Below the pieces are notes generated by a model. The model was not told where the DNA came from, searched no databases, and saw only the letters and a list, made by a program, of their open reading frames with translations. A stretch of DNA of 39,503 nucleotides. Source: Acidobacteriota bacterium (GTDB lineage Bacteria; Acidobacteriota; Terriglobia; UBA7540). This document shows, in pieces, positions 14,266 through 39,277 of the stretch (within the stretch, counting starts at the first letter, position 1; every line of letters begins with the position of its first letter). Made by a program: the position numbers and the translations under genes. The stretch lies in assembly GCA_003224635.1 (NCBI GenBank), contig QHZK01000045.1, forward strand, positions 3,157 through 42,659, written 5' to 3'.

Positions 14266-14470
14266 CTGCCGTCACGTTCTCCATTTCTTGTCTTTTTCGA
14301 TACTCTCTCGAACGCGGAATGCGGTGATCTCGCGGATCAGAGGTAGAGGTAGCGGAAACTGGACCGACCCTTTAGCCGTGACGAATTTCGAAAGATCATT
14401 GGCGAAGGCCCTCACGGCTGACGGCGTGGGATAGAAGCCGACGTGATGTTTGAACGCGGCGAACGCGACC
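14266..14470 (-). pseudogene. C-terminal remnant of a DUF1801-family protein
   Basis: Manual translation of the minus strand gives KVAFAAFKHHVGFYPTPSAVRAFANDLSKFVTAKGSVQFPLPLPLIREITAFRVRESIEKDKKWRT*, typical of the DUF1801 C-terminus; no N-terminal part. Confidence 0.75.
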
Positions 14471-14760
14471 TTCGTGAAGCGTTATGCGGACAAAGCCAGG
14501 AAGCAAATCAGCAAGATCGACAAGAGTACGCTCAAGCTATGTCAGTCCTATCGTTGGCCGGGAAACATTCGTGAACTCCAAAATATCATCGAGAGATCTG
14601 TAATCCCCTGCACCGGGGATACCTTTTGGATCGATGAGGCCTGGCTTTCAAGTCAGGACGCACCTCGCCTGGAATCATCAGGGCCTCTCACCCAGAACCT
14701 CCAGAACTATGAGAAGGAACTCATCGAAGCCGCTCTTGCGGAAAGCAACGGAAAAGTTGC
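14470..14760 (+). pseudogene. C-terminal remnant of a sigma54-dependent (NtrC-type) activator
   Basis: FVKRYADKARKQISKIDKSTLKLCQSYRWPGNIRELQNIIERSVIPCTGDTFWIDEAWLSS...YEKELIEAALAESNGKVAG; AAA+ core and C-terminal HTH absent. Confidence 0.82.
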
Positions 14761-14903
14761 TGGTTACACCCCTCACGCCGTTCCCTTTCTCCCTCACAGA
14801 AGGGCGAGGCTGGAGTACCCTGAAATTGCGCCGTCGCCCGCCCTGCTGCGGTTACAGATGATGGAAAGGAACGCGGGCGAGACGGCCGCGCTCCCAGGTT
14901 GTT

Positions 14904-16070
14904 CTATTTCCCGACCGAGCCCTGGGCGGAAGCCGTAATCCGATTCCCAGCCGACTCGCGCCCGCCGTGGCCGCCGTCCCCGGGCAGCAGCAGGTAGCCG
15001 ACAACGCCGCGCTTGCTGACGGTTGTCACCACGAGGTCATAAGGACGCTTGGCCTGCTTCGAGTAGAAGTCCACCGCCTCTTGGGCGCCCCCATTGGGCA
15101 GCCACAGGGTCCGCCCCTCCGTGGTCAATGACACGTAGCCCGCAAAGCGCTGGTAGCTCACGTCGGTCCTGATAACGGTCAGGGAGACGCCGGGCGCGAG
15201 TTCGACCGTGGAATTCTTGACCGCCTCAAAATCTACGCGCTGGCGATCGATCTCGTGGGCGAGCGTGTCAAGGCTGCTCTGGCTCCGGTTGACCTGGTCG
15301 CGCAGACTCGCCAAGTTCTGCCCCGTGGTGTTCTGCTGGCCGGCCATTTCCTGTCGAAGGCTGGCGACTTCGGTTTGGAGCTGGGCCTGCTTCTGGAGCT
15401 GGTCCTGCACCTGGGCTAGGCGAGCCGTCTGTTCCGCCTGATCCGACTCCACTCGGGCCAGGCGGGCGTCCGTCACTCGAGCCTGCTTATCCATTTCCGC
15501 CCGCATGCGCCCTTCTGCCTGCGCAATGCGTTCCTGGGTCTGGTGGCGCGCGACGGCCAGCGTCGAGCTGATCTTGTGATCGAGCTTGTCGACGCGCTCC
15601 GCGAGTCCATTCCAGTTGGCCGTCAGGTCACGCAGACTGGCTTCGGCTGAGTTCATTCGTCCGCCCAGCGCCGCGAGCACTGGCTGCGGACCGGGCAATT
15701 GCGATAGTGAGATGTTGTTTTGCCGCAGAACGAGGTAGACGTATCCCATCACACAGATCAAGGCGAGAGACAGCAGACTTACAGCCGACCAGAGCGCCCT
15801 GGTCGTGTGCCGGCCCTCTTGCAGGGGCCGCACGGGCCGATCGGGGAAGCGCTCGCGGCCCGAGGCTGCGGGCCGGTGCTCGCTCGGCCGGCCGGCGGCT
15901 CCGCCTCTTCCAGACTGCGGCGCCGCGCCCGCGCGCTCGCCGACATCGGTCAAAGGAATCTCCCCAACGTTGATTTGCTTTGGGTCCATGCTGCTCTTCG
16001 CTTGATCCGTCCTGGTCTTCTCAAGGTCGGAATTTGGTCTGTGCTCATTCAGGTCACCCAAGATACCCAT
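14904..16070 (-). CDS. Membrane-anchored coiled-coil hypothetical protein
   Basis: One TM segment (ALWSAVSLLSLALICVMGYVYLVL), long heptad-like Q/A/E-rich region, conserved-looking C-terminal domain. Start may be the internal MDPKQINV. Confidence 0.7.
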   Translation of the reverse strand: MGILGDLNEHRPNSDLEKTRTDQAKSSMDPKQINVGEIPLTDVGERAGAAPQSGRGGAAGRPSEHRPAASGRERFPDRPVRPLQEGRHTTRALWSAVSLLSLALICVMGYVYLVLRQNNISLSQLPGPQPVLAALGGRMNSAEASLRDLTANWNGLAERVDKLDHKISSTLAVARHQTQERIAQAEGRMRAEMDKQARVTDARLARVESDQAEQTARLAQVQDQLQKQAQLQTEVASLRQEMAGQQNTTGQNLASLRDQVNRSQSSLDTLAHEIDRQRVDFEAVKNSTVELAPGVSLTVIRTDVSYQRFAGYVSLTTEGRTLWLPNGGAQEAVDFYSKQAKRPYDLVVTTVSKRGVVGYLLLPGDGGHGGRESAGNRITASAQGSVGK

Positions 16071-22588: not shown

Positions 22589-23455
22589 GTGCAACAGCGT
22601 GAAAAGTTGAGCGCCGAGGAGATGCTCGCCTTCTACGAGCAGGTCCACCGGTCTGCAATTGAGCGCGACGCGGCGGACGATCTGAGCCCCGCTCTTCATT
22701 GGGCAGGGAACCGGTTCTTCAACCGGTTCACGGACTACGCGCACCGGCTCGGAATGCGAAAGGCGCTCGCTTACCTGGATACGGAATGGGGCTCGCTCAA
22801 GGGCCGTTCGGTGCTCGACGTTGGGTGTGGACGCGGCCGCTGGACCAGAGAATTTGCTTCCCGCGGATGCCGCGTTACGGGAGTGGATATTTCGCCTGAG
22901 GCGATCAGCCGCTTGGCCAAAGAAATGCCCCAGCATACCTTTGTGGTGCGAAGGGTCACGGAGGCCGGGTTTCCTCCCGGCGCCTTCGACCTTGTGAACT
23001 CTGCCACCGTGCTGCAACATCTGCCGGACGAAAGCCAATGGAGCGCTTTGCGGCAGATTGGAGTTTCGATCAAGGACGGCGGTTACTTTGTGGCGCTCGA
23101 AAATTGCTCTGCCTTTGCAAACCCGTTCGTGTTCCCCCATTCTCCGGAAGATTGGGTCCGGATGATCGAATCCACAGGGCTGCGGCTGCGCGCGTCTTGG
23201 GGCTGCAACTTTGAGATTCTCTTCCGGGCCTGGGCGCGGTTAAGCGCCGGCCTGCGTCGTCGTTCGGCGGGCGGAACAGAGGTCGCGGCCGGGAGGGGCG
23301 CCCCTCCGTCATTCTCCCGCTCGAGAAACCTCCTGCGCTCCTTTGTGTACAGCTCGCTCGCCGTGGCGTCCTACGCGCCAGAATGGTGCTGCCACCAAGT
23401 GCCTCTGGCCGCGCCGACCCACGTCGCCATGGTATTTCAGAAACCCAAGGCGTAG
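22589..23455 (+). CDS. Class I SAM-dependent methyltransferase
   Basis: GRSVLDVGCGRGRWTREFASRGCRVTGVDISPEAI. GTG 22589 is the likely start; the longer ORF from 22328 overlaps the previous gene. Confidence 0.87.
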   Translation: MQQREKLSAEEMLAFYEQVHRSAIERDAADDLSPALHWAGNRFFNRFTDYAHRLGMRKALAYLDTEWGSLKGRSVLDVGCGRGRWTREFASRGCRVTGVDISPEAISRLAKEMPQHTFVVRRVTEAGFPPGAFDLVNSATVLQHLPDESQWSALRQIGVSIKDGGYFVALENCSAFANPFVFPHSPEDWVRMIESTGLRLRASWGCNFEILFRAWARLSAGLRRRSAGGTEVAAGRGAPPSFSRSRNLLRSFVYSSLAVASYAPEWCCHQVPLAAPTHVAMVFQKPKA

Positions 23456-35447: not shown

Positions 35448-37379
35448 ATGTGCGGCATAGCAGGAATAGCTGGAGAACCGAGCGGACCCTTCATCCGCGC
35501 CATGACCCGCGCGCTGGTCCACCGCGGTCCGGACGGCGAAGGCTATTACTCCGCCCGGGGTGTAACGCTGGGGCATCGACGACTTAGCGTCATCGACCTC
35601 GAAACCGGCTCCCAGCCCATGACCACCGCCGACGGGCGATACACCATCGCGTTTAACGGAGAGATTTACAACTTCCGGGAGCTGCGGAAGGAACTCGAGT
35701 CGCACGGCGTGCGTTTCCGGACGGAGTCGGATACGGAGGCGCTCCTCCACGCCTACGCGCGCTGGGGCAAGAGCTCACTCACCAAGCTGGTGGGGATGTT
35801 CGCCTTCGCGCTCTGGGACTCGAAGGACCGTCGCCTGCTTCTCGCCCGCGATCGCCTCGGCCTCAAGCCCCTGTATTACGCCGAGGTCGGCGGAAGCTTC
35901 CTCTTCGCGTCCGAGATCAAGGCTCTGCTCGCGCATCCCGAGGTCGAGCGCGAACTCGACCCCGTCGCCCTGGATGATTATTTGACCTACCTTTACGTTC
36001 CGGCGCCCAGGACCATTTTCCGGGGGATCCATGAACTTCCTCCCGCGCACTGGCTGGAGTGGCAGGACGGGAACGCGAGGCGGGAATGCTATTGGGACGT
36101 TTGTTTCCAAACCCAGCGGCACTCCTTCCAGGAAAGCGTCCTCGAAGCGCGAGAGAAGCTGGACGAGTCCGTCAGGGCCAGGTTGGTGAGCGATGTGCCG
36201 CTGGGAGTCTTTTTGAGCGGGGGCCTCGATTCGAGCACGGTCGCGTATTTGATGGCGCGGCACTCGTCGGAACCCGTGCGCGCTTTCACGCTCGGGTTCA
36301 GCGAAGGCGCCCATCTCTATAACGAATGGCAGTTCGCGCGCGAGGTCAGCGACGCCATCGGGGCCGACGCGCGCGAGCTCGTCATCCCGCCGCCCTCCAC
36401 GGCCTTGCTCGAAACCGTCACGAGGTACTTCGACGAGCCCTTCGGCAATCCCACCAATCTTCTGCTTTATCAGTTGTCGGAGGCGGCCCGGAGATACGTC
36501 ACCGTGGCCCTGGTGGGCGACGCGGGCGACGAAGTCTTCCTGGGCTACCCGCGCTATCAAGGGGCGGTCCTGGCCCAGGGGTATCGCGCCGCGCCGCTCA
36601 TGCTGCGGCAGGCGCTCGGGCGCTGCGCCTCATTACTTACCGAGCCCGGCAACGGGAGCCACTTTACGCGCCGGCTTCGGGAGTTTCTTACGGGCGCCAC
36701 TCAACCCCCTGAAGAGATGTATCTCGACTGGATCTCATACTTCAACCGGCCGCTGCGCCGGCGGCTCTACACCTCGGACGCTCAGCGCGAGCTCGGGGAT
36801 TACGACTCCTCGCAGTTTCTGCTGAGGCTGTTCTCCCGGAGCGCCTCCAAGGACTTGCTGGACCGCATCAGTTATGTGGACTTGCACTCCTACCTTCCTT
36901 ACAACATCCTTCGTTACTCCGATCGCATGAGCATGGCCCACGGCCTGGAGATCCGGTGTCCCTACACGGACCACCGGCTGGTTGAGTTTGTCGCCGGCTT
37001 GCCCTGGCAATACAAACTGCACCGCACTGAGACCAAGGTTCTCTTGCGGAACGCCGCCAAACCCTGGCTGCCGAAGAGCGTCTTCCGCCGCTCCAAGATG
37101 GGGCTGAATCCTCCGATGGGTCTATGGCTGCGCGAACACTTGAAGCCGTCACTCGGAGAGTATCTGTCGACGGAGTGCGTTCGCCGCCGCGGATACTTCC
37201 GGACGGAAACGATCGAAGAGTTGGTCCGAGATCACCTGAACGGGCGCCGGGACTATTCACTTCATCTCTGGGCGCTCATTTCTTTTGAAGCATGGCACCG
37301 CCAGTACCTCGACTCCAGACCGGACCCGTCGCTCTCGCTGACGAGCGCCTCCGCCTGCCCGAGTTCGCGCCTCGCCTGA
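35448..37379 (+). CDS. asnB: Asparagine synthase (glutamine-hydrolysing)-type amidotransferase
   Basis: MCGIAGIAG start with catalytic Cys; HRGPDGEGYY; AFNGEIYNFRELRKEL; VPLGVFLSGGLDSSTVAYLMA; YNILRYSDRMSMAHGLEIRCPYTDHRLVEF. Confidence 0.95.
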   Translation: MCGIAGIAGEPSGPFIRAMTRALVHRGPDGEGYYSARGVTLGHRRLSVIDLETGSQPMTTADGRYTIAFNGEIYNFRELRKELESHGVRFRTESDTEALLHAYARWGKSSLTKLVGMFAFALWDSKDRRLLLARDRLGLKPLYYAEVGGSFLFASEIKALLAHPEVERELDPVALDDYLTYLYVPAPRTIFRGIHELPPAHWLEWQDGNARRECYWDVCFQTQRHSFQESVLEAREKLDESVRARLVSDVPLGVFLSGGLDSSTVAYLMARHSSEPVRAFTLGFSEGAHLYNEWQFAREVSDAIGADARELVIPPPSTALLETVTRYFDEPFGNPTNLLLYQLSEAARRYVTVALVGDAGDEVFLGYPRYQGAVLAQGYRAAPLMLRQALGRCASLLTEPGNGSHFTRRLREFLTGATQPPEEMYLDWISYFNRPLRRRLYTSDAQRELGDYDSSQFLLRLFSRSASKDLLDRISYVDLHSYLPYNILRYSDRMSMAHGLEIRCPYTDHRLVEFVAGLPWQYKLHRTETKVLLRNAAKPWLPKSVFRRSKMGLNPPMGLWLREHLKPSLGEYLSTECVRRRGYFRTETIEELVRDHLNGRRDYSLHLWALISFEAWHRQYLDSRPDPSLSLTSASACPSSRLA

Positions 37380-39277
37380 CGCGACCCTCTTGGGGAGTGT
37401 ACTGGCGGACGGCGCGCCACTTGAGCGGACCGCAACTCGTCTGCCTGGTCCGAAGGCGACTGTTGGGCGGCGGTGGTCTGGCCAAGCCCGCTCGCGCCCA
37501 GGCCCGGCTTCGGATACCGGCGCGCCCTCCAAAGTTTGCCGAGTGGAGGCCAGGATGGTCGCGGGATATGCTGGAGACTCAGGCGTGGGAATTCTTGAAT
37601 GTCCCGAGAGCCGCGCCCGGCCCCATTCCCTGGTCCGGCGAGGACCTTCCAAAGCTTTGGCACTACCACCTGAATTACTGCCATTTCCTGAACGTAGACC
37701 TCACCGACTCCGAAGACGAGCCCTTGCTGCGCTCGGCGCTCGCCATCGCGCTGGACTGGATCGATCGCAACCCGACGGGCGGCGAGATCGGCTGGGAGCC
37801 TTACCCTTTGTCGTTGCGAATCGTCAACTGGCTGAAGTTCCTCGCCCGAAATGCTGAGCGCCTGAAAGAACTCGGCGAAGATGCGGCGCCCGGAGGTTCG
37901 GCCATCGACCGCATCGCCGCCAGCCTGCACGTGCAAGCGCTCACGCTCGAGCGGCGGCTCGAAAAGGACCTTCGAGCCAACCACCTCCTCAAGAACGCGA
38001 AGGCGCTTATCTTTGCCGGAGCGCTCCTCGAAGCTCCCGAAACTCCGCGCTGGCTGGAAAAAGGCGGAAAGCTCCTGAAGGCCGAGCTCGCGGAGCAGGT
38101 CCTGGCGGATGGCGGGCACATCGAAAGATGCCCGATGTACCACGCCCAGGTGTTGGACGACCTCCTCGACCTGCAGGCGCTTACCTCCGCCTCTGCCGAG
38201 ACCGTCGGCTACGGGCCGATGTTATCGGGACTCATCGCGCAGATGGCCGGCTTCCTCCGCGCCATCCTTCACCCCGATGGCGAAATCCCCCTGCTGAACG
38301 ACTCGGCCTTAGGCATAGCGCGGTCCCCCCAGGAGTTGCTCCACCTCGCGGGACGTCCCGCCGCGCCCCCGAGCGTCCGGGGCGTGACCGTGCTGGCCGC
38401 CTCGGGTTACGCGGTTGTCCGCGATCTGGGTTCCGAAAGCTGCCTCGTTTTTGACGGCGGTCCGCTCGGCCCTGATTACCAACTCGGGCACGCCCATTGC
38501 GACGTCCTGAGCTACGAGCTGTCGCTCGAAGGACAGCGAGTGGTCGTCGATACCGGCGTGAGCACTTACGAAAAGGGTCCCGAGCGGCACTACGAGCGCT
38601 CGACCGCGGCCCATAATACGCTCCGAATCGATGGCGAGGAGCAGGCCGAGATCTGGGCCGCCTTCAGGGTCGGGCGCCGTCCGCGCGTCGGGCGGATCGA
38701 GGGCGGCGACGTCCAGGGATGCCAGTTGGTGCGTGGAAAGCACTTCGGCTACCGGCGCCTTGGCGTCACGCACACCAGAGTGGTCATTCGCACCCCGGAA
38801 AGCTCCTGGCTGGTTTTGGACTCCCTGACCGGAAAAGGACGACACCGGGTTGAATCATTCGTTCATTTTCACCCCGCCGTCGCGCTCGTGCCTTGTGCGG
38901 AAGGTGGTAGAGATGTTCCGGAGGAACGTCTCCCGACTGCAGCAGAGGGTTACAAAGACGTTCCGCCGGAACGTCTCTCCGGAGACGAGGAAGCCGGCGA
39001 GGTCCAAGCAATGCTGCCCCGCTGGACCTTGCAGTTCGGAGACTATCGATACTTCTTCATGACCTTGGGCGGCGGCGAACTCACCGTGACGCGAAGCTGG
39101 TATGCATCCGAATTCGGCCTTCGCCAGACCCGCCCTGTGATCCTCTGGACTTGGACGGGGGACTTGCCCACAACGATGCTTTACGCCTTCGTGCCGGCGG
39201 ACGCCACACCGCCGATCGTCCGTCGCGTAGACGCGAACACCGTCGAGGTCGATGGTGCGACGATACGTCTGGCCTAG
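37292..39277 (+). CDS. Heparinase II/III family protein (polysaccharide lyase-like)
   Basis: WEFLNVPRAAPGPIPWSGEDLPKLWHYHLNYCHFLN; HVQALTLERRLEKDLRANHLLKNAKAL; DGGPLGPDYQLGHAHCDVLSYELSLEGQRVVVDTGVSTYEKGPERHYERSTAAHNTLRIDG. Start uncertain; in-frame GTG 37397 would avoid overlap with asnB. Confidence 0.9.
   Translation: MAPPVPRLQTGPVALADERLRLPEFAPRLTRPSWGVYWRTARHLSGPQLVCLVRRRLLGGGGLAKPARAQARLRIPARPPKFAEWRPGWSRDMLETQAWEFLNVPRAAPGPIPWSGEDLPKLWHYHLNYCHFLNVDLTDSEDEPLLRSALAIALDWIDRNPTGGEIGWEPYPLSLRIVNWLKFLARNAERLKELGEDAAPGGSAIDRIAASLHVQALTLERRLEKDLRANHLLKNAKALIFAGALLEAPETPRWLEKGGKLLKAELAEQVLADGGHIERCPMYHAQVLDDLLDLQALTSASAETVGYGPMLSGLIAQMAGFLRAILHPDGEIPLLNDSALGIARSPQELLHLAGRPAAPPSVRGVTVLAASGYAVVRDLGSESCLVFDGGPLGPDYQLGHAHCDVLSYELSLEGQRVVVDTGVSTYEKGPERHYERSTAAHNTLRIDGEEQAEIWAAFRVGRRPRVGRIEGGDVQGCQLVRGKHFGYRRLGVTHTRVVIRTPESSWLVLDSLTGKGRHRVESFVHFHPAVALVPCAEGGRDVPEERLPTAAEGYKDVPPERLSGDEEAGEVQAMLPRWTLQFGDYRYFFMTLGGGELTVTRSWYASEFGLRQTRPVILWTWTGDLPTTMLYAFVPADATPPIVRRVDANTVEVDGATIRLA
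38911..38976. repeat. Two tandem palindromes within the heparinase coding sequence
   Basis: AGATGTTCC-GGA-GGAACGTCT (38911-38931) and AGACGTTCC-GCC-GGAACGTCT (38956-38976), 45 bp apart; encode RDVPEERLPTAAEGY and KDVPPERL. Confidence 0.9.

Follow-up and report, generated by a model that had tools for sequence, protein, structure and literature searches.

The window, i.e., the whole stretch of 39,503 nucleotides analysed here, contains an open reading frame encoding a heparinase-family protein, in which two short palindromes lie close together. The features are as follows, with coordinates in the window.

37292 to 39277, + strand: host gene, heparinase II/III-family protein (Hepar_II_III_N and Hepar_II_III_C), 661 aa; open reading frame with Pfam matches PF07940 (E 9.7e-50) and PF16889 (E 1.7e-14)
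38907 to 38980, + strand: putative whole REP doublet (REPIN-like), 74 bp, from the outer GTAG to the outer CTCC (a degenerate CTAC), laid out as in other dimers of its own and related genomes
38907 to 38910, + strand: GTAG tag of hairpin 1, read from the sequence; this flank is conserved in copies from its own genome and from relatives
38911 to 38931, + strand: hairpin 1, AGATGTTCC-GGA-GGAACGTCT, with one T/G position in the stem
38932 to 38955, + strand: spacer of 24 nt between the two hairpins
38956 to 38976, + strand: hairpin 2, AGACGTTCC-GCC-GGAACGTCT, perfect
38977 to 38980, − strand: CTCC, the degenerate complement of the GTAG tag of hairpin 2, where most dimers have an intact CTAC

The original prediction of two palindromes starting 45 bp apart and read through in frame was borne out by both the sequence and the open reading frame 37292-39277. 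Such an arrangement is hardly expected by chance, since the pattern at 3 mismatches or fewer gives 0.05 matches per shuffled window and no shuffle reached 4. Hairpin 2 is one of only two perfect hairpins of its size in the window (9-bp arms, loop of 2 to 6 nt). As DNA, the whole doublet folds into a single long hairpin (z -8.4), and the doublet plus its flanks gives a strong fold as RNA (z -5.15). The other perfect hairpin, GAACCGGTT-CTTC-AACCGGTTC at 22708-22729, is located inside an open reading frame reading GNRFFNRFT and may be a chance product of repeated codons. Elsewhere in the window, a short open reading frame (14450-14938) contains the stretch WPGNIRELQNIIERSVI, which by eye looks like the C-terminal part of a sigma-54-type activator, apparently truncated.

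The heparinase-family open reading frame overlaps the upstream asparagine synthase open reading frame by 88 bases (37292-37379), and the alignment of the ortholog L017 begins only at about residue 27 to 32, hence the true start of the gene may be later. The closest orthologs, L017 (57% identity) and L018 (56%), come from two genomes of the same family. Both align up to about residue 535 and resume at about residue 575, with approximately 25 to 30 residues fewer in between, and five distant homologs are also short at this site in a MAFFT alignment. The peptides RDVPEERL and KDVPPERL, around which absence from orthologs had been proposed, thus fall in a stretch with no counterpart in any of these seven proteins, and a peptide conserved in all orthologs was not what the alignment revealed. 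The limits of the insert are approximate, because homologs vary in the length of the same loop. No ortholog above 57% identity was found in the same-family genomes searched, and the empty site is therefore known at the protein level and not base by base. In addition, as 74 is not divisible by three, the insertion must have been accompanied by some change in the flanks.

The segments aligned around the insert, ESFVHFHPAV before and RWTLQFGDYRYFF after, probably correspond to two strands of the C-terminal beta domain. By sequence, the host protein can be matched to solved heparinase III structures only as far as residue 450, upstream of the insert, which does not allow the loop to be placed on them. 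A single-sequence structure prediction of the host protein had a mean pLDDT of 37.8, too poor to serve as evidence.

The palindrome is not confined to the window. In its own genome (4.39 Mb searched, 601 contigs, 84% complete), 25 sites were found at 2 mismatches or fewer, against none for a reversed-pattern control, so that the palindrome does have other copies in the genome. Among relatives of the same family, 9 out of 36 genomes carry 2 to 14 sites each at 1 mismatch or fewer and the remainder carry none; outside the family, a single copy was found in one of 24 genomes. Presence within the family is thus patchy, including between genera. A scan of GTDB for exact copies returned, among the matches listed, mainly cyanobacteria (Tolypothrix, Iningainema, Hassallia, Plectonema and others), together with Chloroflexi, Dehalococcoidia, Nitrospirae and Rubrobacter metagenome-assembled genomes; these matches indicate the breadth of hosts and not their proportions. 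An Rfam search gave only microRNA-family matches far below gathering scores, as with any long hairpin, and a literature text search for GTAGAGACG returned unrelated papers only, among the titles listed.

Most copies lie between genes. According to a crude codon-usage gene caller, by which 80% of the same DNA is coding, 21 of the 25 sites in the genome are outside genes, while the other four comprise the two hairpins of the window, a copy in argH and another in a short open reading frame of doubtful status. The latter (L097, position 1525) is within 113 codons of weak coding score and may be either a third intragenic copy or a false open reading frame. Four copies (L001 1501, L008 600, L012 1501 and L094 1567) lie immediately at the end of a predicted gene, whose stop codon would then be the TAG contained in the tag, as the text of a survey of GTAG REPs describes (PMC3733652).

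The copy in argH is informative. This gene, on contig C99 (TIGR00838, E 1.2e-160), contains the element in frame, with the palindrome at L009 (G000:C99) 1501-1521. A stretch of 8 residues at this site is absent from all 19 aligned relatives, and adjacent residues differ too. The argH copy is read as MTFRRNVST, i.e., in another frame than the RDVPEERL and KDVPPERL of the window copies. Hence the unit is one of DNA or RNA and not a peptide module, in keeping with what had been suggested from the window alone. Just upstream of the argH palindrome are the bases GCCGTCAACGGGCCGTCGAA, which may represent what is left of a GCCC-type partner hairpin.

Comparison of the copies defines the unit as GTAG-AGACG-N4-N3-N4'-CGTCT; in dimers, CTAC lies on the outer side of the partner hairpin. 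Its stem of 9 bp and loop of 3 nt are within the definition of GTAG REPs (palindrome of 20 to 40 bp, stem of 5 to 13 bp, loop of 2 to 20 nt). The terminal GTAG is found right before hairpin 1 of the window and in most dimers, and degenerate tags occur in some single copies. The inner part of the stem is variable in sequence (TTCC, CCCC, GCCC, CTCC, CCTC and GCTC types), and its four pairs are Watson-Crick in 87.7% of cases, compared to 58.5% in shuffles (maximum 68.1%), among 51 distinct units, which had been selected on their outer bases alone. What is kept is therefore the structure and not the sequence, by compensatory changes in the stem.

Within loci of the own and related genomes, 24 neighbouring pairs of hairpins were found, most of which have GTAG (or one base off) at the outer left and CTAC at the outer right. 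Their spacers are mostly 1 to 9 nt long, and five are longer (24, 25, 25, 32 and 84 nt). The order of the window pair, GTAG, hairpin, 24 nt, hairpin and CTCC, fits that of the dimers. Most dimers join a TTCC stem to a stem of another type; both window hairpins are TTCC.

The best explanation, to which we give a probability of about 0.85, is that a doublet of GTAG-tagged REPs in head-to-head orientation (REPIN-like) entered the heparinase-family gene, probably in a single event, and persisted because it does not disrupt the frame. Insertion of the doublet would add approximately 25 to 30 residues to a loop in the C-terminal beta domain, presumably at the surface, where the added peptide would be tolerated without a selected function. 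The length of the 21-bp core is divisible by three and, by inspection, no frame meets a stop codon within its fixed bases, whereas a stop (TAG) from the GTAG tag is encountered in one frame out of three on each strand. An element with such a core will therefore often leave the reading frame open where it lands without shifting it. Insertions that disrupt genes would be lost, which could account for the excess of intergenic copies.

An unlikely alternative to one doublet, closer to the double in-frame insertion that had first been proposed, is that two single REP hairpins were inserted independently of each other at nearby sites. The 24-nt spacer of the window exceeds the 1 to 9 nt of most dimers, both hairpins have the TTCC stem whereas most dimers mix TTCC with another, and double insertions in one gene are reported in the text of PMC3733652. 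However, a few other pairs have spacers of 25 to 32 nt, and the outer GTAG and CTCC tags occupy the positions typical of a head-to-head dimer. Since dimers in relatives have the same outer tags, the in-frame presence of the two palindromes stands, but a single doublet is likelier to have brought them in.

The near-perfect dyad symmetry, the strong RNA fold (z -5.15) and the position of several copies just after or before genes would also suit a regulatory role, with the palindrome either bound by a dimeric regulator or acting as an RNA control element, and located in a gene only by chance. This is very improbable and was rejected, given that the inner stem bases covary (TTCC, CCCC, GCCC, CTCC, CCTC), so that structure and not sequence is kept, that the distribution is patchy between genera and that placement at promoters is not consistent. 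A functional protein module, with the palindrome as a by-product of its codons, would explain the similar peptides read from both hairpins in the same frame, but is hardly credible and was discarded, being largely refuted by the many intergenic copies and the change of frame in argH, in addition to the homologs that have no such peptide.

As to the preferred reading of a REP doublet, the mobility of such elements is attributed to RAYT transposases (PMC3116915 and the text of PMC3733652), and a RAYT-type (Y1) transposase would here act in trans on single-stranded hairpins. Transposases matching PF01797 were searched in the own and related genomes and their flanks were scanned for the element. 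The own genome has a single Y1-transposase match, a fragment (NCBIfam REP_Tyr_transpos, 26 bits for a cut-off of 80), with no palindrome in the scanned flanks. In element-bearing genomes, 5 out of 66 Y1-transposase loci have a clear copy close by, which is not far above the expectation from element density. The proposed association with a RAYT-like transposase was thus not established in the own or related genomes searched.

At the most suggestive of these five loci, in a related genome (L105 1380-2400, G025:C24), a RAYT-like open reading frame lies between two TTCC copies of the palindrome, within a long direct duplication. A different GTAG palindrome, GTAGGGGCGATTCACGAATCGCCC, is nearer to this open reading frame and inverted around it. 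Because of this nearer palindrome, and because the copies are in a duplicated stretch, the locus was not counted as evidence for a RAYT link.

Two clear in-frame REP insertions are thus present in one genome, with relatives lacking the insert, and one of them is in argH, a conserved enzyme of central metabolism. That one DNA unit is read in two frames clearly shows such inserts to be units of nucleic acid, which the host proteins would tolerate as loops. Furthermore, distant phyla have a single REP stem type in common, a finding relevant to the question of whether such families are of ancient origin or have spread sideways. A bolder and rather improbable extension is that this is a very widespread REP family (own family, cyanobacteria, Chloroflexi and Nitrospirae) whose stop-free 21-bp core has been repeatedly recruited to form protein loops, and that in-frame copies might locally slow translation through an mRNA hairpin, affecting folding or expression.

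Among known systems, the likeness to Rickettsia palindromic elements, which had been suggested at first, holds for function, as in both cases palindromic repeats are in frame in protein genes and add residues absent from orthologs, here in the heparinase-family gene and in argH. It does not extend to the type of repeat, as the element described here has a GTAG tag and a 3-nt loop and is mostly intergenic, whereas RPE-4 and RPE-6 are filed in the text of PMC3733652 as CGTC-tagged with loops of 4 to 5 nt.

REPINs consist of two inverted REPs and a spacer, which together form one long hairpin, and single REPs are read as their remnants (Bertels and Rainey 2011, PMC3116915). The window doublet is alike in that its two inverted REPs and spacer fold into one long hairpin. 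In contrast to REPINs, dimers in the relatives studied here often combine two different stem types, and the only candidate for a cognate RAYT in the own genome is the Y1-transposase fragment.

The closest likeness is to GTAG REPs, for which head-to-head dimers, subfamilies with compensatory stem changes and a mostly intergenic location are described (Di Nocera, De Gregorio and Rocco 2013, PMC3733652). The 9-bp stem, short loop and terminal GTAG are shared, as are the dimers, the compensatory subfamilies and the location, the AGACG-stem family being compared with the text of that survey. In the same text, GTAG repeats are named in Proteobacteria, Cyanobacteria, Chloroflexi and the PVC group, and Acidobacteria appear with transposases that have other terminal repeats. 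Intragenic dimers encoding 20 to 30 aa are also reported there, a length similar to that of the window insert. The proposal of an undescribed, coding-compatible repeat family therefore mostly falls away: the window element is of the GTAG REP/REPIN kind and is a new example of a described phenomenon.
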